Shown: positions 11,183-56,121 of the stretch, piece by piece | Numbering within the stretch: the stretch's first letter is position 1 | Layout: the number at the start of each line of letters is the position of its first letter | Virus record (IMG/VR): IMGVR_UViG_3300006810_000037 | Location: 1-64,000 of that record | Length of the DNA stretch: 64,000 nucleotides | DNA from: a virus | Reading direction: 5' to 3' (one strand) | The notes under the pieces: model-generated | Seen by the model: the letters and a program-made list of their open reading frames with translations, nothing else | What the model was told of the DNA's origin: nothing | Database searches by the model: none | Made by a program: the position numbers and the translations under genes

Positions 11183-12764
11183 TAGAAGGTCTGCCTCCTG
11201 AAGCAGGTACATAAGCTGAGCCGTCTTTATCATACATAGTAAAACCTTCTATCTTAATAAAATCTGCAGGAATATTAAGCAATTTCTGCATCATGCTCAC
11301 CATGATTGGACTTTGAATGTTTAAAGGAGGAACATCCATATATGACAGGCCATACGTGGTTATATTTTCAAATGCTTTCTGTTGATCTCTGCGTGTATCA
11401 TCAACTAATTTTTGTTCCCATGTTACCTGCTCACTGGTAAAGGCAGGGTAATCAGAAGGCTCAGGAGGAAATAAATCATCTGTATATTTCATAGCATAGA
11501 TATGTTTGCAGTATCTATACTCATCTAACAAATGACTCCAAGTATCTTGAACCTGTATTAGTTGATTAGGTTCTCCTGCAGCTGCAGGAGGAATTGTATC
11601 GTAATCACCATATTTAACCATGCCCTCACTACGAGGTGCAGGGGCATCAGGGTTTTTAGGTAGGTCAGTACCTCTTAAATAAACATTTCCAAAGTCGCTA
11701 AAAACACCAGGGAAATCACGGTTTGTGTTCGATGGCTTGTTATTTATACCCGCAGAATTTACTGACTGATTATAAGGCAACTCATATCCAGAAGGAGCAA
11801 CAATTGTTAGCGCTCTATTCTGTAAAGCTTCTTGCATAATTCTCTCATCAATTTCACCGGCTGTTGTTGTAACTTCATAACGCCCTGGTTTTAATGTTGC
11901 ACATCTAGTTATAGGAAAGGTCGGACTTTTTCTCTTACCTAAAAATGTAGAAACATAATAGTATTGTCTACGTGTAAAATCTTGACAACTACAAGCATAT
12001 TTAGATCCGTTAATAAAAAATCTTCCTACCTGAGGAGATCTCTGCGAAGGTGTGATTAAGACACTGTCAAATGTAGATTCAATAGAACCTTGCTTACGTA
12101 AAATTAATACGCCATTGTACGGTTCGATTGAATCCAATACCGCCGCTGTATACCCATACTTTATTCCTGTATCTGGATCAATTGTTTCTTTTGTAATAGG
12201 AATACCCGCTTGCGTTAGAACTCTATCTTCTAAAACATCTCCGTTTAAAGGAGTTAAGTTAGGTTGATTGCCAGGGGTTTCTATGAAGAGCGGAGGAGGC
12301 AGCGGATTATTCGCATCCCATGTTCCGTTTAATTGCACACGCCAAAAATTTCCTGAATCAGTAACAGATGCGATAGATAATTCTGTATTATTTTGATCAA
12401 CTAAATTGTCAAATCTAAGACTTCCTGCAAGGATAGATCCGCACCAATGCATTCCCAACTCTTTGTTTTTAGTAGGAAATCCCCTAATCAGTCCTGCCAT
12501 AAGTGGCGGATTATCGCCATTCTGTGTAGAACCGGAAGGAAGAGGTATTCGATAAGAGAAGGGATATTCAAATGCTGCATAAGCAAGATTAGAAGTTGCT
12601 AACTCGTAACCTCTTCTCCAGCGATTCCAAGACGCCTCTTTATTGCTTGAATAAAGTGAGTCTGCAACACTACCACCGAATTCGGAAACGATTGGAAAAG
12701 GACCTGCTTTTGCTTTACTTTGAGGTGGCTCCTTGAATCCAAAAGAATTGCCACGCGGTGACAT
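11175..12764 (-). CDS. Virion protein with a split SWIM zinc-finger motif
   Basis: This 529-residue late protein contains YACSCQDF at about residue 255 and YCKHIYA at about 420, which together form the CxC...CxH ligand set of SWIM zinc fingers, separated by about 160 residues instead of the usual short spacer. Aromatic and Pro-rich segments surround the site. The neighbours are virion genes, so a structural protein with a bound metal is inferred. Whether the two halves fold together is not known. Confidence 0.6.
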   Translation of the reverse strand: MSPRGNSFGFKEPPQSKAKAGPFPIVSEFGGSVADSLYSSNKEASWNRWRRGYELATSNLAYAAFEYPFSYRIPLPSGSTQNGDNPPLMAGLIRGFPTKNKELGMHWCGSILAGSLRFDNLVDQNNTELSIASVTDSGNFWRVQLNGTWDANNPLPPPLFIETPGNQPNLTPLNGDVLEDRVLTQAGIPITKETIDPDTGIKYGYTAAVLDSIEPYNGVLILRKQGSIESTFDSVLITPSQRSPQVGRFFINGSKYACSCQDFTRRQYYYVSTFLGKRKSPTFPITRCATLKPGRYEVTTTAGEIDERIMQEALQNRALTIVAPSGYELPYNQSVNSAGINNKPSNTNRDFPGVFSDFGNVYLRGTDLPKNPDAPAPRSEGMVKYGDYDTIPPAAAGEPNQLIQVQDTWSHLLDEYRYCKHIYAMKYTDDLFPPEPSDYPAFTSEQVTWEQKLVDDTRRDQQKAFENITTYGLSYMDVPPLNIQSPIMVSMMQKLLNIPADFIKIEGFTMYDKDGSAYVPASGGRPSNV

Positions 12765-18376: not shown

Positions 18377-19538
18377 TCAAATAGTGCCGTCGTCTTGAAC
18401 GAAGCTAAATGCGGTGGTGATGAAGTCCTTATTAAGAATTTCGAAACCAGCATACAGTTGCCAAATCAGAATAATGAAGCGGCTGAAGTCATCATTATTG
18501 TTGATGAGCACCTGGGCGTTAGGGCCACCGATGCCAACACCGATTGACTGAGGACCGAAGAAGTAGCCCTGAGCGACTTCCTTGGAAGCATAGCTGCTGC
18601 CGCCGTCAAAAGACGTATTGACATTCTTGTTGGGGAAGTTGGTGGACTCGTAGAACTTCACACCTTCAAACTGAACGCCAGTAGGCATAACAGGCTCACC
18701 AGCCAAGAAGTAGGCTTGGCCTGCCTGAGGACCCATGTAGAAGCTGGCGTTGTTAGGCATCATGGGGTTGCCCATGTACATGCCTTGACCAGGATTACCG
18801 GCGTAACGAGCGATCTCACGGAAGTCCTCGTCACGACGCAGGTGCATCATGAAGGTGGGATCGCAAATACAACGATACAGACCGTCAGCAAAGGTAGGTA
18901 CGTTGCGCTTACGCATCTGCTTAACAACGTTCAGCAGGTCAGTACGCACGGAGAATTGCTGAACCTGAGCTTCATACTCAGCAGTGGTGTAAGAGATACG
19001 GTTTTGACTGTCTTTCTCTTTAGCGCCTGCAAAATAGTAACCGCCGATGTCATCGGATGCAGCTCCATTAGCCTCAGCTTTGGCCATTTCGTCAATGAAG
19101 ACGCGGTCGCGCCAACGACGATAGTCGTCCAGCAGAGTCAGAGAACCGATGCTCTGGTGGAACATGTTCAAGTTGCCGGTGTCGAGCAGCAGACGCTGAG
19201 CGGTAACCAGAGTCTCACGGGCAATTTTAAAGGTTGAAGGCTGGGTGGGATCGCCTGGATCAGCAGGACCGGTGTACTCTTTCAGCACAACAAGCACCTT
19301 CTCCTTGGTGATGTTGCGGCTGTTAGCAGTACCGATGGTCTGATCGGAGACGCGCTCACGGCTCTCCTTGGTTCCAGGGGTTCCCCAGAACTTGTAGCGA
19401 TCAAGTTGCACCGTCTGGCCGGGCTGGCGAGTGAAGTCATGGACGACCACAGGCTCAGCAGCCATCTCGCAAATGTAAGCGGGGTGAGGGCGATAAAGCT
19501 CCGCACCTAGCAGTTTTGGAAAATCGTTCTCCTGGTCT
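18377..19538 (-). CDS. Major capsid protein (exon 2 of an intron-split gene)
   Basis: The protein body (VVVHDFTRQPGQTVQLDRYK, then RVSDQTIGT, LLDDYRRWRDRVFIDEMAKA, CDPTFMMHLRRDEDF, then a conserved C-terminus) matches the N4-gp56/P22-like HK97-fold major capsid family. An ATG at 19465 exists, but the frame stays open upstream and reads DFPKLLGAELYRPHPAYICE, which looks like genuine capsid N-terminus. The reading continues to 19538, where a group I intron begins. Joined to exon 1 (20432-20439, encoding Met-Leu and part of Val) the product is 389 residues. The splice point was read by hand and is a prediction. Confidence 0.85.
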
Positions 19539-20431
19539 CCAATTTCTTGAAGGGGTGGACCATCTCTTCATCCCAGAGGGATGCCGGACGCTGTATCTGG
19601 TATTACGTTACAAGATCGTGTAACACCCAGTGGCCTCTGCACGTTCCAATCACGGGCTTGATTGGCTTCGCTCAGGATTACCCTCGTCTTTACGTTAGGG
19701 CTTCCCTGAATTCATCCGGTTTTCACTTAACGATTGCTCGCTAAGGTGACAACGCTTGAGAAGTTCAGGTGAGGTAAAATTTGGAAACTTGTTCATAAAC
19801 ATCATGAATCCAAAATTAGTCTCAGGATTTGGTAATCTCTACTTAACTGAATCCGGAAGAGCTTTTGAAAAACACTTGGACGATAATGACCAGGAGTATT
19901 TTGAAGAACTTCCTATACAACACACTAGTAAGTATGATCGTGTCTCAATCCTTGTTGACAGTAAAAGAAAAAGATTTAATTTACACGTCTTAATGGCTGT
20001 TGCTTTCTTGGATTTAGATTTGCGTTCACATGGAACACACAACTTTTCTTTGCAAGTTAATCATATAGATAACAACAAAAGAAATAACAATCTAAATAAT
20101 TTAGAGATTGCTACTAAACAAGAAAACCTTATAAGAAGCTGGACTGAAAACAATCAAATTAACAATGGTTTTGCAAGTAAAGGAAAGGCGAAAACATCAC
20201 TCAGGAAATTTTCTAAAGAAGATGTGAAACAAATTAAATCTTTAAAAGAAGCAGGTCTTTCATACAGAAAGATTGCTGAAAAATTTAATTGTAATCACGG
20301 TGCTATTTACCAAATGCTGAAAGGTAATACCTACCAGGATCTGAACTAGCTATCAATGAACACTTTGGTTTATCCTCCAGTGTCAGGTTTATCGGGTGAA
20401 AGATAAAGCCAAACGGCTTATCTAACAAAAT
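19539..20431 (-). mobile_element. Group I intron in the major capsid gene
   Basis: On the minus strand, 19575-19735 holds a group I core: AATTCAGGGAAGCCC (P4-like), GGGTAATCCTGAGCGAAGCC (the td/trnL-like P5-P6 segment), and GGCCA paired with TGGTC after AAGAGA (P7). Near 20431 a P1-like helix forms between CTAGT, ending in the splice-site U, and GTTAG, with the diagnostic U.G pair and a five-base loop. The intron ends in G at 19539. Splicing joins ATGCTAGT to AGACCAGG in frame. The intron is 893 nt and its insert is a homing endonuclease gene on the other strand. Exact ends are inferred. Confidence 0.7.
19804..20349 (+). CDS. HNH homing endonuclease inside the capsid intron
   Basis: From ATG 19804 the protein is 181 residues. 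It has an HNH_3-type motif (NLHVLMAVAFLDLD, then QVNHIDNNKRNNNLNNLEI, then TKQENLIRS) and a C-terminal HTH of the NUMOD/IENR type (KEDVKQIKSLKEAGLSYRKI, then GAIYQMLKGN). Such enzymes cut intron-less alleles and spread the intron. It is encoded antisense to the intron and the capsid gene, so it cannot be translated from the capsid transcript. It is more AT-rich than the flanking capsid exon, in keeping with separate origin. ATG 19756 is less likely. Confidence 0.85.
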   Translation: MNPKLVSGFGNLYLTESGRAFEKHLDDNDQEYFEELPIQHTSKYDRVSILVDSKRKRFNLHVLMAVAFLDLDLRSHGTHNFSLQVNHIDNNKRNNNLNNLEIATKQENLIRSWTENNQINNGFASKGKAKTSLRKFSKEDVKQIKSLKEAGLSYRKIAEKFNCNHGAIYQMLKGNTYQDLN

Positions 20432-36345: not shown

Positions 36346-36844
36346 CGTTCTAGCTGTGAAAAACGCTGAGATCCATTGCGGCGCAAGGAGTTTCCTCAAT
36401 TCCACAGGTGAGCCGGGCATGTATGTGGATGGTGTATGATCGCGCACGCATTCCTATGTGTTCGACGGAATGGTTGCAGCACTGCCGCTGATGGCCTATA
36501 GTGGATTCATCGGGGACGCCACGGGCTCTCCGGTCAATCGGTTGACAGGTCCGCCGGATCTGCTACGATTGAACCAAGCGAGGCGGGTGACAGCCGCAGC
36601 GCTACAGTTATCCGAGCAGGTCACCACCCTGCGCACCTAGACAATTGAAGAAGAGTACCGGCACCGATTGGTTGCAGGTGGGCGAACTAGAGCCAGCCCC
36701 AGTCCGGCCCGGATGCGCGTGACACCGATGGTGTGTGTCACAGCCAGGGGGAGACATCCTCTGTAGCTGAAACGTAGGCTTTTTGTAAGCTGATGGTAGG
36801 CAAATTGTGCGGAGTGGCAGCCGCAGCGGACTCATAGATTCACC
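36346..36844. other. GC-rich non-coding region
   Basis: These 500 bp are much richer in G+C than the rest of the window and contain no convincing gene; the only longer frame (36458-36640, GTG start) has no SD, no recognisable product and no coupling to neighbours. A hairpin, GTGACAC with GTGTCAC, lies at 36719-36741. The stretch leads into the tRNA-like element. It may be the upstream half of a control region, or imported DNA. Confidence 0.5.
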
Positions 36845-36893
36845 GTTCCCGGTCCCAAGGGGGGACTGTGCAGGTTCGAGTCCTGCCGGGATC
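36845..36893 (+). ncRNA. tRNA-like three-way junction
   Basis: GTTCCCG (36845-36851) pairs with CGGGATC (36887-36893) at six of seven positions and encloses two hairpins: GTCCC/GGGAC and a perfect T-arm, GCAGG-TTCGAGT-CCTGC, whose loop fits the T-psi-C consensus. Upstream bases resemble parts of a class II tRNA (AGCGGACT), but no complete anticodon or D arm folds. It is either a decayed tRNA-Leu-like gene or a tRNA mimic at the 5' end of the early operon. Confidence 0.5.
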
Positions 36894-36894
36894 C

Positions 36895-36941
36895 TTGGCA
36901 GCAGTAATGTTGTCAATTGTCCTATCACCACTAAGACAATG
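36895..36941 (+). promoter_or_regulatory. Leader A: hairpin plus constant linker
   Basis: The hairpin TTGGCAGC-AGTAAT-GTTGTCAA is followed by the linker TATCACCACTAAGACA and the ATG of the next gene. The same hairpin with compensating base changes and the same linker recur before the genes at 37200 and 37642. There is no Shine-Dalgarno sequence, so the linker is the likely ribosome-recognition feature. Confidence 0.6.
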
Positions 36942-37112
36942 ATTTCTTTTTCTAAAGTTGAAGCTGATTTTCTTTCTCATTGCATGGAAATTTTCGCTGA
37001 TACTTTCAAGGAAGGTGAAGAGATGAACTTCACTGATTATGATCGTGAGAATATTCTTATGAATCATCTTCAGATTGAAGAACTTTATCGGAAACTTCAA
37101 ACATTAAGCTGA
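36939..37112 (+). CDS. Small acidic protein, first gene of the early operon
   Basis: ATG 36939 lies directly after the constant linker, which decides the start; a longer frame from 36807 would translate the tRNA-like element and is rejected. The 57-residue protein is helical and acidic (EIFADTFKEGEEMNFTDYD). The stop overlaps the next structured leader. Function unknown. Confidence 0.65.
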   Translation: MISFSKVEADFLSHCMEIFADTFKEGEEMNFTDYDRENILMNHLQIEELYRKLQTLS

Positions 37113-37202
37113 TCCGTTCAAGCGGGTCCGGAGTGTGCAATCCCTCCGGCAGTTATTGTCAGCAGCAATGCTGACATTCGTTCTATCACCACTAAGAACA
37201 TG
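37106..37202 (+). promoter_or_regulatory. Leader B: structured intercistronic element
   Basis: This 97-nt element contains three consecutive hairpins: CCG-TTCAAG-CGG (T-loop-like), CCGGAG/CTCCGG with a 10-base loop, and TGTCAGC/GCTGACA. It then has the linker TATCACCACTAAGAAC joined to ATG 37200. It matches leader C at 93 of 97 positions, with the differences concentrated in or near the third hairpin and keeping it paired. It starts inside the stop codon context of the preceding gene. Confidence 0.75.
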
Positions 37203-37535
37203 CCTGTTAACAATCCAGACTTACTCTGTGCTTACGGAAGTATGACTGAGCGTCAACAGAAACGCTATGACAACTTGAAAGTTGAGCATAGATATGCACG
37301 TTTCTGTGCAGACAATGATCGTAACGGAAACCCTCGGAGAATCTGGGTGGTTTCTAACGACAAAGGTGAGGCATTATTTGCCTGGGATGAAGGTTACCAT
37401 GGCCGCAATTGTGTGCCGGGTAGTTTACGTCGATCCTTCGATGATCATTCTGTAAGGGTAGATTGTAACGTCGCGACTTATCAAATGTTGAAGAAGTTAC
37501 CCTCCCCTGAATTCGTACCTAATTTCAATTGGTAA
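37200..37535 (+). CDS. Hypothetical early protein, 111 aa
   Basis: The protein has an alpha/beta composition (RRIWVVSNDKGEALFAWDEG, then YHGRNCVPGSLRRSFDDHSV). The N-terminus DLLCAYGSMTERQQKRYDNL is helical. It has no recognised domain. It is the second gene of the ribozyme-spaced operon, with its start fixed by leader B. Confidence 0.65.
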   Translation: MPVNNPDLLCAYGSMTERQQKRYDNLKVEHRYARFCADNDRNGNPRRIWVVSNDKGEALFAWDEGYHGRNCVPGSLRRSFDDHSVRVDCNVATYQMLKKLPSPEFVPNFNW

Positions 37536-37547
37536 TTACCATATTGA

Positions 37548-37644
37548 AAGCTGTTCCGTTCAAGCGGGTCCGGAGTGTGCAATCCCTCCGGCAGTTATTG
37601 TCAGCAGCAATGCTGGCAATTGTTCTATCACCACTAAGAACATG
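37548..37644 (+). promoter_or_regulatory. Leader C: structured intercistronic element
   Basis: This is a near-identical second copy of leader B with four substitutions in 97 nt. The third hairpin extends to TTGTCAGC/GCTGGCAA, with a U.G pair where leader A has G.U and leader B has U-A. This covariation supports a functional RNA fold. The element ends at ATG 37642. Confidence 0.75.
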
Positions 37645-37863
37645 GAGAAACCACTGATCACATCTGAGAGAATCCCTCACGATTGTGGACACTATCACGA
37701 GAGAATTTATAACCACGATACAATCGTGGCCTATATCTTGAGTGAACCTGGAAAGGGTACATATTGCTTCGTTAACAACGAAGATCAAATGTGCTGGAAA
37801 GGTTATGCAACCGTGGCTGATGCCAAGGAAGCATTCTTCAAACTCCGTCCTGATCTTAATTAA
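37642..37863 (+). CDS. Hypothetical early protein, 73 aa
   Basis: This small alpha/beta protein contains His/Cys residues (HDCGHYHERIYNHDTIVAYI) and a helical end (ATVADAKEAFFKLRPDL). It is third in the operon, between leader C and hammerhead ribozyme 1. Function unknown. Confidence 0.65.
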   Translation: MEKPLITSERIPHDCGHYHERIYNHDTIVAYILSEPGKGTYCFVNNEDQMCWKGYATVADAKEAFFKLRPDLN

Positions 37864-37864
37864 T

Positions 37865-37926
37865 GACGAAACTATCCCTCCGGGGATAGTCTCCGGACTT
37901 GGCATGTCCGGACTGATGAGTCTGCC
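37865..37926 (+). ncRNA. Type II hammerhead ribozyme 1
   Basis: All core elements are present in type II order: GAC (stem II), GAAA (37868-37871), stem III CTATCCC-TCCG-GGGATAG, the cleavage triplet GTC ending at 37891, stem I TCCGGAC/GTCCGGA with loop TTGGCAT, CTGATGA (37913-37919), and GTC closing stem II. The loop I bases GGCA can pair with TGCC after stem II, the expected tertiary contact. It starts two bases after the upstream stop, so cleavage would separate the two cistrons. Confidence 0.9.
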
Positions 37927-37950
37927 ACTTGTTCAATCACCACTAAGAAC

Positions 37951-38712
37951 ATGTCAAGTAACGGTTACGTTCTACAGCGCGGACTTTCACCTATCAATGG
38001 TGAACCTTTCGTTGTAATCATGACAATGAAGTCTTCAAATAAGAAGACCAGTAATATGATCCAGGTCTGGATATTGCATGAGGATGTTAATCCTGTTGAT
38101 GCAATTAAATCAGGCTTAGATGAAACTATATGTGGATATTGTTCACATCGTTTTCGTCTACATCCTGATGGCAAGTTACATAGGACTTGTTATGTGAATC
38201 CAGGTCAAGCACCATTATCTATCTGGCGTGCATACAAGAGGGGTTTATACCCAGGCATTAACAGCTGCTTTAATGTTGTCCGGTTATTATCGGGCCGTCA
38301 TATTAGATGGGGTGCTTATGGGGATCCTTCTGTGATCGACCCTTCTATTGTGAAATCTTTCAATGAGAAAGCTGAGGGCCACACTGGATACACTCATCAA
38401 TGGAAGCATTCATTTGCTGATGCTTTCATAGGTGTGTTCCAGGCATCATGTGATTCTTTCGGTGATTATCTTGAGGCCTCTTCTAAGGGGTGGAAATGTT
38501 TCTCAGTTGTTAACAAGGGCGATACCAATGTGGCTAACATCGGCAAGCTATGTCCGACTGAGGTTCCAAACTCACAAGCTAAGTGTCAATCATGCACTCT
38601 ATGTGATGGTTCAAAGACTGATATTTTCATCCCTGCTCATGGCACGGGTGGCAAATTAGTCTCCTATGTAAGCCAAGATGTGCACGAGCTTTCTGAGCTG
38701 CTGTTCAATTGA
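37951..38712 (+). CDS. Phage protein with Cys/His cluster (DUF7227-like)
   Basis: The pattern NGYVLQRGLSPINGEPFVVI, then SSNKKTSNMIQVWIL, CGYCSHR, RTCYVNPGQAPLSIWRAYKR and later KCQSCTLCDG matches a protein widespread in phages of actinobacteria and cyanobacteria that I recall as DUF7227. The Cys/His sets suggest zinc binding. Its function is not known. It is the largest product of the ribozyme-spaced operon, and its start follows the constant linker at 37936-37950. Confidence 0.7.
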   Translation: MSSNGYVLQRGLSPINGEPFVVIMTMKSSNKKTSNMIQVWILHEDVNPVDAIKSGLDETICGYCSHRFRLHPDGKLHRTCYVNPGQAPLSIWRAYKRGLYPGINSCFNVVRLLSGRHIRWGAYGDPSVIDPSIVKSFNEKAEGHTGYTHQWKHSFADAFIGVFQASCDSFGDYLEASSKGWKCFSVVNKGDTNVANIGKLCPTEVPNSQAKCQSCTLCDGSKTDIFIPAHGTGGKLVSYVSQDVHELSELLFN

Positions 38713-38716
38713 TCTC

Positions 38717-38778
38717 GACGAAACTATCCCTCCGGGGATAGTCCTAGGGTTTAGCATCCCCTAGCTGATGAGTCTGCC
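38717..38778 (+). ncRNA. Type II hammerhead ribozyme 2
   Basis: The core is identical to ribozyme 1: GAC, GAAA (38720-38723), stem III CTATCCC-TCCG-GGGATAG, GTC ending at 38743, CTGATGA (38765-38771) and GTC. Stem I has a different sequence, CTAGGG/CCCTAG, which keeps the pairing by compensatory change. Loop I GCA can pair with TGC at 38775-38777. It begins 4 bp after the upstream stop. Confidence 0.9.
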
Positions 38779-38799
38779 ACTATTCTTTTCAACAATCCA

Positions 38800-39171
38800 A
38801 TGCACAATCACAACATCCTTCGGGCACTTAATGTGCTGTCAATTCTGATCCAAACTAGTTACGAACTAGGCTATGAAACCGGTAAGTTTTACCGGCAACA
38901 CTTACATCATCACGTTGTTTCTGGCATCGCTTTATTAATCACAGTTTGTGTACACTTATATGCAAACCGTAAACGATACAGAAATAAGATAGAGGCTTTG
39001 TTTGTATATCGATACGAAACAACCATTAACCTTGCGCCAGCTGTTCATCCTCTGTATGCTTCGATGGAATCATTAATGATTCAAACGAGCAGAGACCTTC
39101 GTGCGATCACTGGCATCAAACGTAAGGTCTCTAAGGTAAGGATGACAGATCAGTACCTTTCCATGGTCTGA
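38800..39171 (+). CDS. Small membrane protein, 123 aa
   Basis: There is one clear hydrophobic helix (VVSGIALLITVCVHLYAN) at about residues 46-63, preceded by a His-rich segment (RQHLHHH) and followed by a basic cytoplasmic-type tail. It is fifth in the operon. The sequence after hammerhead 2 lacks the constant linker. An early membrane-targeted host-takeover protein is possible; the family is unknown. Confidence 0.6.
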   Translation: MHNHNILRALNVLSILIQTSYELGYETGKFYRQHLHHHVVSGIALLITVCVHLYANRKRYRNKIEALFVYRYETTINLAPAVHPLYASMESLMIQTSRDLRAITGIKRKVSKVRMTDQYLSMV

Positions 39172-39181
39172 GCACTGTGAT

Positions 39182-39276
39182 CTGGGCTGCATCTTGGCGT
39201 GACTGTGTGGTGCTTTCGCGCCATGATTCTCTACAGCGTAAGACCCAGGTTTGGGGGGTTGCGCCTACAACTCCCC
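39182..39276 (+). ncRNA. Structured spacer RNA (element R3)
   Basis: CTGGG (39182) pairs with CCCAG (39244-39248) around an inner fold, followed by a strong hairpin GGGGGGTTG/CAACTCCCC (39253-39276). The junction bases GCATC and GTAAG recur inside two other elements at 44349 and 45037. No protein frame fits. The spacer continues with ATCACCACTGAAG, a variant of the linker found before the other genes of this operon. Confidence 0.5.
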
Positions 39277-39337
39277 TAGCATTCAATCAACAAGGCTTCA
39301 TCACCACTGAAGTCTCACACATACATCAACTAAACCC

Positions 39338-39610
39338 ATGATCAATTCATTTCGCCTCGGTAAGAACAAATTTCTCACGCTTGACACGTATTGTCGCCAA
39401 GACTATCCCACAAACACAATGCACTTTTTCCAATCTTTCTTGTCAATTATTGCTGGTATTGGTATTGGAACATTATTAACAGTCGCAGCCCAAAAAGAGA
39501 TTAATAAACATGTTGAAACTACCTGTTATGGACCAGCGGATCAGATTGCATCTGTCCGTTCTTTCATGGGTACAGTCAAGTATTGCGTTAAGGGGGGTAT
39601 CAAGCAATGA
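39338..39610 (+). CDS. Small membrane protein, 90 aa
   Basis: A hydrophobic helix (FFQSFLSIIAGIGIGTLLTV) lies at about residues 30-50, followed by a Cys-containing polar end. ATG 39419 (MHFFQSF) is an alternative start that would put the helix at the N-terminus. The stop overlaps the next ATG by 4 bp. Confidence 0.55.
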   Translation: MINSFRLGKNKFLTLDTYCRQDYPTNTMHFFQSFLSIIAGIGIGTLLTVAAQKEINKHVETTCYGPADQIASVRSFMGTVKYCVKGGIKQ

Positions 39611-39876
39611 AAAGAATCGAACGTATCAAAGCTTTGATCGATGAAGCTGGCTCTAGCTATGTTTCTGTCACCTTTATCAAAAAGGATGGCAGCGAACGTC
39701 AGATGACATTCAATCCAAAGGATGTGAATGACATCAAGGGTACTGGAGACACCAGTAATGTTGACGCGAACATCTTTCGTGTTCGTGATAACAAGATACA
39801 ACAATGGCGTTCATTTGATGCACGTCGTGTGATCAAAATTAAATCCAAAGGAACAATCACTGAATTCAATGACTAA
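39607..39876 (+). CDS. Conserved small phage protein, 89 aa
   Basis: The pattern SYVSVTFIKKDGSERQMTFN, then NIFRVRDNKIQQWRSFDARR, then VIKI is a beta-rich small domain that I recall from many phages. It resembles WYL-type or SH3-type folds in its strand order, but no function is established. ATGA coupling links it to the membrane protein before it. Confidence 0.6.
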   Translation: MKRIERIKALIDEAGSSYVSVTFIKKDGSERQMTFNPKDVNDIKGTGDTSNVDANIFRVRDNKIQQWRSFDARRVIKIKSKGTITEFND

Positions 39877-41365: not shown

Positions 41366-41396
41366 TGTAACAATCGAGAAAATCAGTGCACAAATA

Positions 41397-41440
41397 CCGA
41401 TTACACCCTTGTTTTATTTAGCTATAGAGAAAACGTACAC
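41397..41440 (-). promoter_or_regulatory. Bipartite element, copy 1 (inverted)
   Basis: On the minus strand GTGTACGTTTTC starts at 41440 and GTGTAATCGG starts at 41406, a separation of 34 bp. It faces the terminator at 41329 and no gene, which argues against a simple promoter. It forms an inverted pair with copy 2. Confidence 0.8.
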
Positions 41441-41539
41441 AAGAGGGTCTTATGTACAGAAGCTGAGTCTCATCTGATCCAATCAAGACAATCTCATTAA
41501 TCTTTTTTGAGACTAATGATCTGTACATTAACTCCCCTA

Positions 41540-41583
41540 GTGTACGTTTTTCTATAGGGGGATTTGCGAAGGGGTGTAATCGG
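41540..41583 (+). promoter_or_regulatory. Bipartite element, copy 2
   Basis: GTGTACGTTT starts at 41540 and GTGTAATCGG at 41574, again 34 bp apart. Between copies 1 and 2 the flanks mirror each other (TCTGTACATWA and TGAGACT on each arm). Immediately downstream is a 10-bp inverted repeat, TTTCCGATTA (41602) and TAATCGGAAA (41643), which includes the half-site core. The next gene starts at 41708. Confidence 0.8.
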
Positions 41584-41707
41584 TTTTTTTGTGTCATTTA
41601 ATTTCCGATTATGAGTGACCGCAAGGGATCTCAGCTAAGCTGTAATCGGAAAACATGCACACCCAACACTATTGAGAACCCATCTCAGTAACAACACCAC
41701 AAGACCT

Positions 41708-42007
41708 ATGAAAACCACGAACAAGATCATTGAGGTCATCTCAGTTGACGTTGATCTCATCGACAAAGAAGGGACCACGCATTACATCGCCACTGCGATC
41801 CTTGAGGATGTCTACAAGGTGCGTACGAGCCTGCTTGATCCAGCGGAGTGGCGGCCAGGGCAATGCTCAGGTGGCTTCGAGGTGCCACTAGATGGCGAGC
41901 AACCACCGCTCAAGAGCGAGCACGCAGAGCTGTTGACCTATCTCTGTGAGCAAGAGATCGACTGGCGATGCGACGACGAAGGTGATGATATGTACATGAC
42001 TACATGA
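41708..42007 (+). CDS. Hypothetical protein, 99 aa
   Basis: From ATG 41708 the protein is beta-rich at the start (NKIIEVISVDVDLIDKEG) and acidic at the end (CEQEIDWRCDDEGDDMYM). It follows bipartite element copy 2 by 124 bp. No family recognised. Confidence 0.6.
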   Translation: MKTTNKIIEVISVDVDLIDKEGTTHYIATAILEDVYKVRTSLLDPAEWRPGQCSGGFEVPLDGEQPPLKSEHAELLTYLCEQEIDWRCDDEGDDMYMTT

Positions 42008-42041
42008 ACTAACCCTTAGCTAACCCACTGGACTAACCACC

Positions 42042-42248
42042 ATGACACTTGAAGAAATTAAATGCGCCGTGATGAACGGTCACACCGTTCACTGGGAGAA
42101 CGAGGCTTATGTCGTTGAGTATGCGCCAGCCATTGATGATTTCTTGATTCGCTGTGTGTTAAATGACACCAGCATCGGTCTGACTTGGCAAGACAACGTA
42201 ACCATGAACGGCAGAGAGGATCAATTCTTCATTGCATCAAAACAATGA
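42042..42248 (+). CDS. Small beta-rich protein, 68 aa
   Basis: The pattern MTLEEIKCAVMNGHTVHWEN, then YVVEYAPAIDDFLIRCVLND, then IGLTWQD is a compact fold that I recall as common among small marine phage proteins. Function unknown. It ends before the second bipartite-element region. Confidence 0.6.
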   Translation: MTLEEIKCAVMNGHTVHWENEAYVVEYAPAIDDFLIRCVLNDTSIGLTWQDNVTMNGREDQFFIASKQ

Positions 42249-42312
42249 TCATTTACATATGACAAAAGCAACCACTGATCGCACCACAACAACACAAAGC
42301 ATGCACAAAACT

Positions 42313-42414
42313 CGATTACACCTACCCCGATCACACTTATCCACAACCAAAACATACACTTCTACCCCTTGTGTACGTTTCTTTAGTACCAAGATAATTT
42401 ATAGGTGTAATCGG
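42313..42414 (+). promoter_or_regulatory. Bipartite element, copy 3, with DnaA box
   Basis: GTGTACGTTT starts at 42371 and GTGTAATCGG at 42405, again 34 bp apart. Upstream, on the other strand, are a degenerate divergent GTGTATGTTTTG (42349-42359) and GTGTAATCGAG (about 42310-42320) with altered spacing, and between them an exact DnaA box TTATCCACA (42337-42345). The layout repeats the inverted pair of copies 1 and 2 in weaker form. Confidence 0.7.
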
Positions 42415-42429
42415 TTTTTATACACACAA

Positions 42430-42500
42430 ACTTGTACAATCCCCCTGTACATTCAACCCACCCCGACTTGTACAATTACCCGTACATTCAACCCACCCCG
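42430..42500 (+). repeat. Tandem 36-bp repeat before the start codon
   Basis: Two units, 42430-42465 and 42466-42500, share ACTTGTACAAT and GTACATTCAACCCACCCCG with small differences between them. The second ends directly at ATG 42501. Each unit holds two GTAC tetramers, which also occur in the bipartite element. Confidence 0.75.
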
Positions 42501-46738: not shown

Positions 46739-46858
46739 GAGAACGCTTGTAGCTGATTCCCCTGTAGCAAAGTGTTTCCATGGTCAGTTCATCGTCAAAT
46801 CTCAGGCCCCGTTCCCTGCCTGAAGAAGTGCGCCGGTGTAAACCGGTGAACGTTCTCC
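46739..46858 (+). ncRNA. Folded 120-nt intergenic RNA
   Basis: GGAGAACG (46739-46746) and CGTTCTCC (46851-46858) form an 8-bp perfect closing stem directly after a stop codon. Inside are CCGGT-GTAA-ACCGG and TCAGG/CCTGA hairpins. No protein frame fits the region. The 81 bp after it to ATG 46940 are AT-rich. This may be a cis-regulatory RNA or a small RNA; no known class was recognised. Confidence 0.5.
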
Positions 46859-53696: not shown

Positions 53697-54980
53697 TTAC
53701 CTATTTGTTTCTTGCCATCCTACTGAAGCTAGTACATCTGCACCTGCAGTATCACTAGATGCAACGAGGATAAGTTCGATAGGAGTGCTGGTGAAGCTGT
53801 TGCGTTCAAGCTGGAATTCAAATAAATTATCACGGTGCAGTTCTGAAGCAGTGGAGCCTTGGTTTGAACCAACTGCGTAGCCTGCTGTTAACACTTCGCC
53901 TGCACCAAGGCTGTAACTTGTTGCTGTGATGTTGTACTCAACTAATGAAGAACTACTATTTGTAACCCAAGTGCCTCCAGAAGTCGTGCCTCCTTGTACA
54001 ATTTCCCAACAATAGTTTGCATTGTTAGTAATACCTAATACATTTAATGAATCCAAGATTGCTATGCCGTCAATGCGTGTGCTCTTTAGACGTAATGAAA
54101 TAAGAGGATACACTGTTGAAGCAACTGTAAGATCTCTTGGAGAACCGATTGGTAACTTTGCTTCTGCTGCGTTACCCCTTATTTCATAGCCACCCTCTGA
54201 AATGACTGTCATACAAATTTGTTTCAAAGTACTACTGCTAGCCGTAGTGTCAGTGTTTGTAAGTTCAACACGCAAGGGTAAGCAAGCTGTAGTTATGTAC
54301 GTTCCTGAAGTAACATTTGCGTGCTGGAATGAGTGGCAATGAATGAAGACACCATCTATTACAAATCCGCATCGGACTGTACCGGAACCGAGCCACTCAA
54401 AATCAAACCAAACAATTTGAACCTTTGATAGATCTAAAGTAATCCCTGAAGGTCCGTTGCCATCTAAGGTGTCAATATTCCACTCCGTTTTCGATACTTC
54501 TGTATTGACTAGGGATCCTGTAACAGAACTTCTCTCAACAAATGAAGGTTCATTAGTACTGTTTAGTTCCAAGTAGAGGCCATTCTCTGTACCAAAGTAT
54601 CCGATTCGCTGCCTAAGATTATTTTTAGCTTCTTCAAAATTAAAAGATAAAATAGCAAGCAGAGATTTTCCAGGTTGATAATTAAATACTTTTTTAGTTT
54701 CTCTTAATACTTGTGAGCCTGATGCAGTTGTGACTGTCATGTCAAGTAAGCCTGCATCTGCATTAAAGGCAGAAGAACCTCCTGCTGCTGTTGACTCAAC
54801 CCATTCGCCATTGTCTACATAGCGATGAGAAGACTCAAACAAAGTATAAGGATTCGAAACCCTTAGCCTGCCAAAAGCATCATTGCTTGTAGTTCCAGAT
54901 GTGCTTATAGCTGTCGTTAAAGGATTAACTACATACACATCTTTAACTAATTCAGAATTATAATAACGACCTTGTGGCAT
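53697..54980 (-). CDS. Cyanophage virion structural protein, 427 aa
   Basis: The N-terminus (GTTSNDAFGRLRVSNPYTLF, then ESSHRYVDNG) is a pattern I recall from structural proteins of many cyanophages. The rest is beta-rich with Ser/Thr loops. The gene lies on the minus strand between early plus-strand blocks, so it needs its own late promoter near 55000-55080, an AT-rich gap. Probably a fibre, collar or capsid-surface protein. Confidence 0.65.
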   Translation of the reverse strand: MPQGRYYNSELVKDVYVVNPLTTAISTSGTTSNDAFGRLRVSNPYTLFESSHRYVDNGEWVESTAAGGSSAFNADAGLLDMTVTTASGSQVLRETKKVFNYQPGKSLLAILSFNFEEAKNNLRQRIGYFGTENGLYLELNSTNEPSFVERSSVTGSLVNTEVSKTEWNIDTLDGNGPSGITLDLSKVQIVWFDFEWLGSGTVRCGFVIDGVFIHCHSFQHANVTSGTYITTACLPLRVELTNTDTTASSSTLKQICMTVISEGGYEIRGNAAEAKLPIGSPRDLTVASTVYPLISLRLKSTRIDGIAILDSLNVLGITNNANYCWEIVQGGTTSGGTWVTNSSSSLVEYNITATSYSLGAGEVLTAGYAVGSNQGSTASELHRDNLFEFQLERNSFTSTPIELILVASSDTAGADVLASVGWQETNR

Positions 54981-55087
54981 AACTTTAATCCATATACTTT
55001 ATCTCTAACATTCTAATGCCCTTCAGGTAAACAAGGGCAACATGCCTTAAAATAAAGAATATAGAATTATAATCCTGATTAAAACAA

Positions 55088-55525
55088 ATGTTATATGACC
55101 TGTTCGGGGACTTCAGCGGTGGAATAAAAGCGAGTGAAAACAGTGCGTCATTCGATGGTAAGACGCTGGGTGAATTTTTAAGGAGTGATTACGATTACTT
55201 CAGAGGAAATAACAGAAGGGGCGGAGGTTTTAGCGGCAGAGATCCTGAAGATTTATTTGTAGCTTCTTTGATTGGTGCTGGTCCAAGGTCGAGATTCTTT
55301 GCTCCGCTAAGAAATGCAGGTATTGATACACAAGACTATCAATACTATGCAGACAAAGCTGGGATTAAAAATGTGAATAGTCAAAACGATCTTGATCAAA
55401 TCATTACAGCGTTTAATGAAGACAGGAGACAAGCTATGGAAATGCCTCAAGAAATGAAAAGTGAAATGGTACCACAACCAAGTGCGCCAGTGCCTATGGC
55501 TGGTAAATACTTAGGGTTCTTCTAA
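55088..55525 (+). CDS. Virion-style hypothetical protein, 145 aa
   Basis: Composition (FRGNNRRGGGFSGRDPEDLF, then Met/Pro-rich C-terminus ending MAGKYLGFF) resembles the late proteins of the 23-35 kb block; the terminal AGKY-type motif also appears in the mini-ORF at 24145. It is divergent from the virion gene at 53697. Unknown family. Confidence 0.55.
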   Translation: MLYDLFGDFSGGIKASENSASFDGKTLGEFLRSDYDYFRGNNRRGGGFSGRDPEDLFVASLIGAGPRSRFFAPLRNAGIDTQDYQYYADKAGIKNVNSQNDLDQIITAFNEDRRQAMEMPQEMKSEMVPQPSAPVPMAGKYLGFF

Positions 55526-55590
55526 ATTATTAGATACATATTAAATGAAAATATATTCTAGAATATGGCACGTAGCTTCAACACTTACTG

Positions 55591-56121
55591 ATGGCCCACT
55601 TCCCAGATCCCTTCGCAGACAATAATAAAGAAGCTGTTGCACAAGAGGTGCAGCCAACAGTTAAGTATAAGAAAGATGATAAGACAGCAAAGTTTGTATC
55701 AGAGTTGACTCGTGTTTGTGCTACGCTTGACCACCTGCGTATTCAGTCACACCTCATTCATCTAAACTATGAGGCTTCAAATTTTTTGGGTGTGCATAAG
55801 TTTCTGAAAAAGCAGTACGAAGCGCATGCAGAACAATTTGATCGGGTGGGTGAGTACATCCGTTCGATGGATTACCTTCTTCCAATGTGCGAGAAAGGTT
55901 TGAAATCCGCATCAAAAGGTGTGAAGCATGTGGAATCATATGAACCCAGCAATATGCTGCTCACTTATTATACAAACCTAGAGAACTTTGCGGTCAACCT
56001 TAAAGGCATTAGGAAACAAGCAGAGCGCATTGATGCTCCTGACATTGAAAACTATATTGCCGAGCTGGTTGGTGAAATGTTCCTGGCAGCTTGGAAGATT
56101 AAATCGATGCTAAGAAATTAA
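55591..56121 (+). CDS. Dps-like ferritin family protein
   Basis: The helical protein has His57, His69, Asp84 and Glu88 at spacings 12, 15 and 4, exactly those of the Dps ferroxidase ligands (His51, His63, Asp78, Glu82 in E. coli). The surroundings (IQSHLIHLNYEASNFLGVHK, then FDRVGEYI) fit the family except that Trp52 is Leu. Dps oligomers bind DNA and oxidise iron, protecting DNA. In a phage this may limit oxidative damage in a photosynthetic host or during packaging. Start ATG 55591. Confidence 0.75.
   Translation: MAHFPDPFADNNKEAVAQEVQPTVKYKKDDKTAKFVSELTRVCATLDHLRIQSHLIHLNYEASNFLGVHKFLKKQYEAHAEQFDRVGEYIRSMDYLLPMCEKGLKSASKGVKHVESYEPSNMLLTYYTNLENFAVNLKGIRKQAERIDAPDIENYIAELVGEMFLAAWKIKSMLRN

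Follow-up and report, generated by a model that had tools for sequence, protein, structure and literature searches.

An operon of small cyanophage genes is punctuated by folded RNA elements of three kinds that take each other's place among related phages, namely type II hammerhead ribozymes, anticodon-less elements resembling tRNA (A, B and C) and an element termed R3. It lies in the 64 kb (hereafter the window) analyzed out of the 69.8-kb IMG/VR virus record IMGVR_UViG_3300006810_000037, whose terminase shares ~78% identity with that of S-EIV1, a freshwater cyanophage in culture. The + strand gene run starts at ~36.9 kb, downstream of a region with a promoter-like site, and in 36845–39338 the order is tRNA-like element A and a hairpin, gene 1, leader B and a hairpin, gene 2, leader C and a hairpin, gene 3, hammerhead 1 (HHR1), gene 4, hammerhead 2 (HHR2), gene 5, R3 and a hairpin, and gene 6 (Table 1). 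We infer, with a probability of roughly 0.6, that these elements act as cutters through which one polycistronic early mRNA yields separate units, each with a structured 5′ end.

The original prediction, made from the sequence of the window, was that every intergenic spacer of this operon is a folded RNA. Within 36845–39338 this holds, as all six junctions carry the elements it had named, close to where it had placed them; further on it does not, the downstream genes overlapping each other and the relative L057 having module-free junctions. Minimum free energy folding is by itself weak evidence, only moderately above chance (z-scores: A −2.2, B −3.4, C −2.8, HHR1 −2.3, HHR2 −1.7, R3 −1.5), and the comparative evidence is decisive: the structures covary in relatives.

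Leaders B and C, two copies of a single element (96% identity over 97 nt), define a family, TLS-B, that forms a three-way junction with a tRNA-type T-loop, in which a 12-bp acceptor/T stack and one discriminator base are followed by UURCC. Leader B consists of P1 (AGCUG/CAGUU), a P2 hairpin, a 7-bp T-arm with a UGCAAUC loop and the discriminator A, and the stop codon of gene 1 (UGA, 37110–37112) lies inside its P1. Two divergent copies are present in the corresponding operon of S-EIV1, and a search pattern derived from them (spacing of 5–9 nt allowed) was found in at least 119 viral contigs, with identical spacing in 142 of the 144 matches listed. The same pattern gave 34 matches of mixed spacing in prokaryote genomes, about the chance expectation and with one likely true case (L332). 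A separate search of plasmids gave no match, and a first leader-B pattern with a fixed TTCAAG loop returned just the near-identical phage and unrelated matches devoid of the fold. With the covariance model, 73 loci gave 128 matches and 57 additional loci gave 100; loci with several copies are frequent, and subtypes that have a different P2 hairpin are among the matches. Across the leader B family 97.1% of the cells are paired and 11 of 17 pairs changed on both sides; P1 and P3, neither of which is set by the pattern, covary strongly, while the conservation of P2 is partly imposed, as its sequence is set by the pattern. No credible match for leaders B and C was found among 4227 Rfam models. Most of the 20 tested TLS-B-bearing IMG/VR records have terminases homologous to that of the window (63–82%), and the three records without a match may be incomplete contigs. 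The prokaryotic case, on a Prochlorococcus single-cell contig (AG-436-M02, L332 1172–1219, − strand), scores 53.6 bits.

The geometry of the family is that of a tRNA acceptor half. The 12 bp are split between P1 and P3 as 5+7, 6+6 or 7+5, and when only the T-arm was required, the distance from T-loop to UURCC was 13 nt in 158 and 14 nt in 12 of the 172 distinct elements, a ruler that implies 12 pairs and a discriminator, the arrangement of tRNA. In some contigs UGCAAAC gives way to a canonical T-loop with the frame unchanged, UUCGAUU in L255, L293 and L308 and UUCAACU in L314, although these contigs include related phages and the swaps may be few events. The ruler also holds while P2 varies among subtypes (TCCGTnnAAGCGGCAT, CCGTAAGCGGACA, TGAGTCATAGCTCCC). 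Of 124 copies, 103 have the upstream stop codon inside P1, always in the same position, and the downstream start codon follows at a median of 37 nt. A T-loop, a 12-bp acceptor/T stack and a discriminator, the features expected of a tRNA 3′-processing substrate, are thus all present. The apparent mimicry of tRNA by A, B and C speaks for host tRNA-processing enzymes more than for self-cleavage. Other hammerhead-bearing phages (L063, L114, L150, L068, L091, L104/L065) also contain anticodon-less tRNA-like shapes, mostly with UGCRANY T-loops and often with a hairpin next to them; those in L063, L114, L150, L068 and L091 are leads only.

Element A, which opens the operon, combines an acceptor of 7 bp, one position of which is a U-U mismatch, with a small D-like hairpin and a 5-bp T-arm with a UUCGAGU loop. 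Compensatory changes occur in all three stems in the L057 and L040 homologues (seven pairs changed on both sides, with two exceptions, among only three sequences), and the L057 homologue has a D-loop, AGUUGGU, like those of real tRNAs. Because of this covariation of acceptor, D-like and T stems across three phages, an attP or tRNA-gene fragment was rejected. Neither ARAGORN nor the Rfam model RF00005 called A, B or C as tRNA, and all three lack an anticodon arm.

Behind the mimics, one base past the 12-bp stack, lies a hairpin of at least 6 bp in 100 copies, an H-type pseudoknot in 98 and neither in 4. The second stem of the pseudoknot varies with the pairing kept (GCGG/CCGC, UGUGG/CCACA, GCAGG/CCUGC). 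Copies in the window have a GNRA-type hairpin rather than the pseudoknot, and the type of hairpin A recurs behind B and C with stem changes. Intrinsic terminators were rejected, strong U tracts being absent after the modules, though a simple scan flags hairpins B and C.

HHR1 and HHR2 have the type II architecture (stems I and III closed by loops, stem II open), and CUGAUGA, GAAAC and GUC or GUA, i.e., the catalytic core and the NUH, are present in all seven copies from the window, L178 and L057. In these copies 96.9% of the cells are paired and 10 of 23 pairs changed on both sides, against a mean of 4.5 in shuffles, none of which did as well (0/500). The pseudoknot between loop I and the tail after stem II is also found (97.1% of cells paired, one pair with a two-sided change), in HHR2 with one A-C mismatch. 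From 119 further pattern-found viral contigs, 183 type II copies were recovered in 108 loci, 38 of which have at least two, and 85% of the copies have an upstream stop codon and a downstream start codon each no more than 60 nt away (21% for random positions); the contigs are partly near-duplicates, and the figures are counts rather than independent events. By analogy with what is established for the family, HHR1 and HHR2 would be expected to self-cleave.

R3 is composed of an outer stem (CUGGG/CCCAG), an inner stem, a conserved GUAAG(U/A) strand and the loop CUGUGUGGUGCUUU; among the window, L178 and L057 the outer stem changes with pairing kept, and loop and GUAAG are conserved. A short form, CCUGGGC-NUC-stem-GUAAGU-CCCAGG, occurs in 48 copies in 32 S-EIV1-like contigs at a median of 30 nt 5′ of a start codon, with only one match in 1.8 Mb of other loci. 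Five of the 11 predicted pairs of the R3 family covary, and judging by their shared ends the long form of the window and the short form are likely one family. In L207 a repeated GTCCTGAGTATGAC...TTAAA motif stands before two S-EIV1 genes (11270–11297 and 11989–12016), with 16 regular-expression matches in the scanned loci, and is a possible fourth module.

Searching related cyanophages for the same operon with swapped modules, a check the original prediction had proposed, was successful for the window, L178, L057 and S-EIV1. Leader B precedes an L178 gene whose homologue in L057 lacks it, L057 has three hammerheads before other genes, and S-EIV1 has TLS-B and the short R3 with no hammerhead in this region. 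Three TLS-B copies and two hammerheads share one stretch in L229, and L297 has both kinds. In 100 hammerhead-bearing loci of other phages model R1 found no credible TLS-B, so the mixing of the two is a feature of this lineage. A search for relatives with the WYL_2 protein gave only three contigs, all already known, and the marine phages S-CRES1/2 and B23 have the WYL_2 gene alone in common, with no hammerhead or A-type tRNA-like element seen.

The proposed processing would run as follows. One early polycistronic RNA would be transcribed from the upstream promoter region, and each junction would act as a cassette in which a cutter is followed by a structured piece for the new 5′ end and then by a short leader with little Shine-Dalgarno sequence and the AUG, the cutter being any of the three interchangeable kinds. 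Hammerheads would cut themselves between the stem III hairpin, kept on the upstream 3′ end, and the stem I hairpin, which would become the new downstream 5′ end. Going by their geometry, the mimics would be cut after the discriminator by a host tRNA 3′-processing nuclease, e.g., RNase Z, which the lack of an encoded CCA makes the obvious candidate, while RNase P may or may not act on the 5′ side; cutting on the 3′ side is favoured by the stop codon inside the mimic, which a 5′-side cut would remove. R3 would be a third junction module, a putative cutter or regulator, and the hairpin or H-type pseudoknot at the new mRNA 5′ end could shield it from 5′-end-dependent decay. Modular processing into single-gene mRNAs, as the original prediction had it, is the best reading of the anatomy, and the swaps were found; its hammerhead part is not new, and its cleavage step is a prediction from sequence. 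A broader view, to which we give somewhat less than even odds, is that S-EIV1-like cyanophages use a combinatorial RNA punctuation, in which ribozyme, tRNA-mimic and R3 cutters, each with a 5′ hairpin or pseudoknot, divide the early transcript into capped-like single-gene mRNAs and permit gene cassettes to be swapped, since the mimic supplies the upstream stop and the next joint the start.

Several points weigh against processing. The hammerheads stay below the 37-bit gathering threshold of RF02276 (35.4, 31.0, 36.0 and 35.9 bits), with E-values still significant, a threshold that is a curation cut-off and no structural feature, and in copy L057_H1 stem II has a U-U mismatch at its base. The mimics have no 3′ CCA, usually read by bacterial RNase P, and most D-arm analogues of TLS-B lack the D-loop GG of real tRNA. 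The fixed distance could instead reflect protein- or ribosome-binding geometry without any cutting, a cutting role for R3 is hypothetical, and the geometry of the scan was partly shaped after leader B had been seen, an effect mostly avoided by the T-arm-only test.

The embedded stop codons (103 of 124) and the nearby starts (median 37 nt downstream) also suit translational coupling without cutting, in which mimics and the structures behind them would hold or recapture ribosomes ending at the stop and let them restart at the next AUG, hammerheads being a minority add-on; several start codons, moreover, are overlapped or touched by UCACCAC hairpins. We consider this unlikely, as hammerheads, which are known cutters, fill the same junctions with the same linker after them, and the T-loop-to-discriminator ruler is the geometry of tRNA 3′-end processing.

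That linker is itself a hairpin with a conserved UCACCAC loop. The original prediction placed the same linker behind the different modules. Four of them (A, B, C and HHR1) do have it there, whereas HHR2 is without it and the copy belonging to R3 ends up ~30 nt ahead of the ATG. All six + strand TCACCAC of the window fall in the operon, in hairpins with differing stems of 5–8 bp, against a background in which about 21% of positions there would reach 5 bp, and ATCACCACT occurs five times against 0.43 expected. One of the six follows the promoter-like site, and counterparts of this hairpin with different stems occur in L040 (10300, 10378) and L057 (117, 154). The occurrence of this hairpin after the promoter region as well suggests an extra regulatory role, and the sole + strand GTGGTG of the stretch lies in the R3 loop, where as GUGGUG it could possibly pair with the CACCAC of linker loops. 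The modules might be protein- or metabolite-responsive leaders, i.e., switches, with the UCACCAC hairpins and the R3 loop forming a regulon bound by a phage protein or by RNA–RNA pairing. We give this a rather small chance, considering that the UCACCAC hairpin was not found in the S-EIV1 operon and is confined to the subgroup of the window whereas the cutter-like modules are shared, and that TLS-B and R3, matching nothing in Rfam, belong to no known riboswitch class. The promoter scan relied on consensus only and gave fewer sites in the real sequence than in its shuffles; it showed no strong promoter-like site inside the operon, and in L057 inspection by eye showed a block resembling TGCTACGATTGAAC ahead of the operon. 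Between the promoter-like site and element A, a long GC-rich untranslated stretch (36640–36840) would come free as a small RNA if A is cut.

A smaller chance again goes to leaders B and C being a new class of self-cleaving ribozyme rather than tRNA mimics. Their P2 hairpin and loop nucleotides are highly conserved (in part enforced by the pattern) and TLS-B occurs beside hammerheads, but P2 differs by subtype with the 12-bp ruler unchanged, and canonical tRNA T-loops can substitute. Known classes were rejected for B, C and R3: twister, pistol, hatchet and twister-sister gave no match at E ≤ 5 in the window or E ≤ 10 around three TLS-B copies, and Rfam gave no match to any riboswitch or ribozyme class. 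It is very improbable that the modules are mainly recombination joints, near-identical homology for swapping gene cassettes with incidental RNA structure, as B and C flanking gene 2 and the cargo genes varying among relatives at the same kind of joint might suggest, because compensatory changes preserve pairing despite lost DNA identity and the hammerhead cores are conserved in sequence.

The proposed processing at these junctions has known parallels. tRNAs punctuate polycistronic transcripts in mitochondria, and RNase P and RNase Z cut at tRNA-like structures in mRNAs. As there, a tRNA-shaped element stands between genes, where it would mark the cut, with a 12-bp acceptor/T stack, a T-loop and a discriminator; unlike there, it has no anticodon arm or decoding role, the stop codon of the upstream gene is embedded in it, the T-loop of most copies is UGCRANN, and a hairpin or pseudoknot comes at a fixed place behind it. 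The tRNA-like structures of plant RNA viruses sit at the 3′ ends of RNA genomes, whereas those described here separate the genes of an operon in a DNA phage and may number several in one operon; in both, a virus imitates the acceptor/T half of tRNA (for a review of viral tRNA-like structures, see PMC5723415). Perreault et al. 2011 (PMC3088659) described hammerhead arrays flanking phage and prophage genes and proposed that they turn long phage transcripts into mRNAs of gene length, and HHR1 and HHR2 agree with these and with RF02276 in architecture, core and loop I–tail pseudoknot. Different from that report, the operon described here belongs to a cyanophage and consists of small genes, its hammerheads are interchangeable with tRNA mimics and R3 at the junctions, and one type of hairpin, with the UCACCAC loop, closes several of these junctions. 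The statement of the original prediction that it knew of no described phage operon built this way does not carry over to hammerhead arrays, already known with the same proposal, while the tRNA-mimic family, of which no description was found in the open-licence literature, and its interchange with ribozymes appear new. With TLS-B, an abundant family is added to the structured RNAs, one that has no annotation even in S-EIV1, a sequenced isolate, and that occupies the same slot in one operon as ribozymes do. If cutting is true, a single promoter region would be enough for the phage to adjust each protein in level and lifetime with no nuclease of its own, phage hammerhead arrays would gain a testable biological role, and compact parts for polycistronic expression in cyanobacteria would become available.

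Table 1. Features of the operon and its upstream region (window coordinates)
Feature	Position	Strand	Remarks
sigma70-like promoter, extended −10 (TTGACA-16-TACGAT)	36542..36569	+	consensus scan
Hairpin GCAGG-UCACCAC-CCUGC	36616..36632	+	directly 3′ of promoter-like site
Element A, anticodon-less tRNA-like	36845..36893	+	discriminator base 36894; homologues in window, L057, L040
Hairpin A, 9 bp, GUAA tetraloop	36895..36916	+	starts at first base past discriminator
UCACCAC-loop hairpin	36916..36940	+	overlaps gene 1 start codon
Gene 1	36939..37112	+	57 aa; no known family (scanned from residue 2)
Leader B (TLS-B)	37107..37155	+	covariance model R1 58.6 bits, E 3.8e-16
GCAA-tetraloop hairpin	37156..37176	+	directly 3′ of leader B
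UCACCAC-loop hairpin	37180..37199	+	end abuts gene 2 start codon
Gene 2	37200..37535	+	111 aa; no known family
Leader C (second TLS-B copy)	37549..37597	+	R1 49.8 bits, E 3.2e-13
GCAA-tetraloop hairpin	37598..37619	+	directly 3′ of leader C
UCACCAC-loop hairpin	37621..37642	+	at gene 3 start codon
Gene 3	37642..37863	+	73 aa; no known family
HHR1, type II	37864..37930	+	RF02276 35.4 bits, E 0.00015; predicted cut after C37891
UCACCAC-loop hairpin	37930..37951	+	at gene 4 start codon
Gene 4	37951..38712	+	253 aa; phrog_2554 (unknown function), E 6.3e-60
HHR2, type II	38716..38782	+	RF02276 31.0 bits, E 4.9e-5 (121-base search); predicted cut after C38743
Gene 5	38800..39171	+	123 aa; phrog_3587 (unknown function), E 5e-15
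Element R3	39182..39248	+	homologues in L178, L057; short-form family in S-EIV1-like phages
Hairpin	39253..39278	+	directly 3′ of R3
UCACCAC-loop hairpin, 8-bp stem	39293..39315	+	~22 nt 5′ of gene 6 start codon
Gene 6	39338..39610	+	90 aa; overlapped downstream by WYL_2-like gene (39607–39876)

Apart from the junctions, the phrog_2554 gene (37951–38712) has relatives in Mycobacterium, Klebsiella and Gordonia phages, one of them annotated as an antirestriction protein. Elsewhere in the window, a glutamine-II riboswitch aptamer scores above the Rfam threshold (46801–46855, − strand) and is conserved in L178 (8330–8384, − strand), and a group I intron was detected with 87 bits (19536–19768, − strand). 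Short inverted and direct repeats (CGATTACACC/GGTGTAATCG, GTGTACG) cluster in the partly non-coding region 41386–42500, perhaps a replication origin. Finally, an in-frame insertion of ~1 kb is present in the terminase large subunit in S-EIV1 (KJ410740.1, about 54679–55673) and in the records of L243, L240 and L209; it sits either near residue 198 or at residue 80–95, and these insertions look like inteins.

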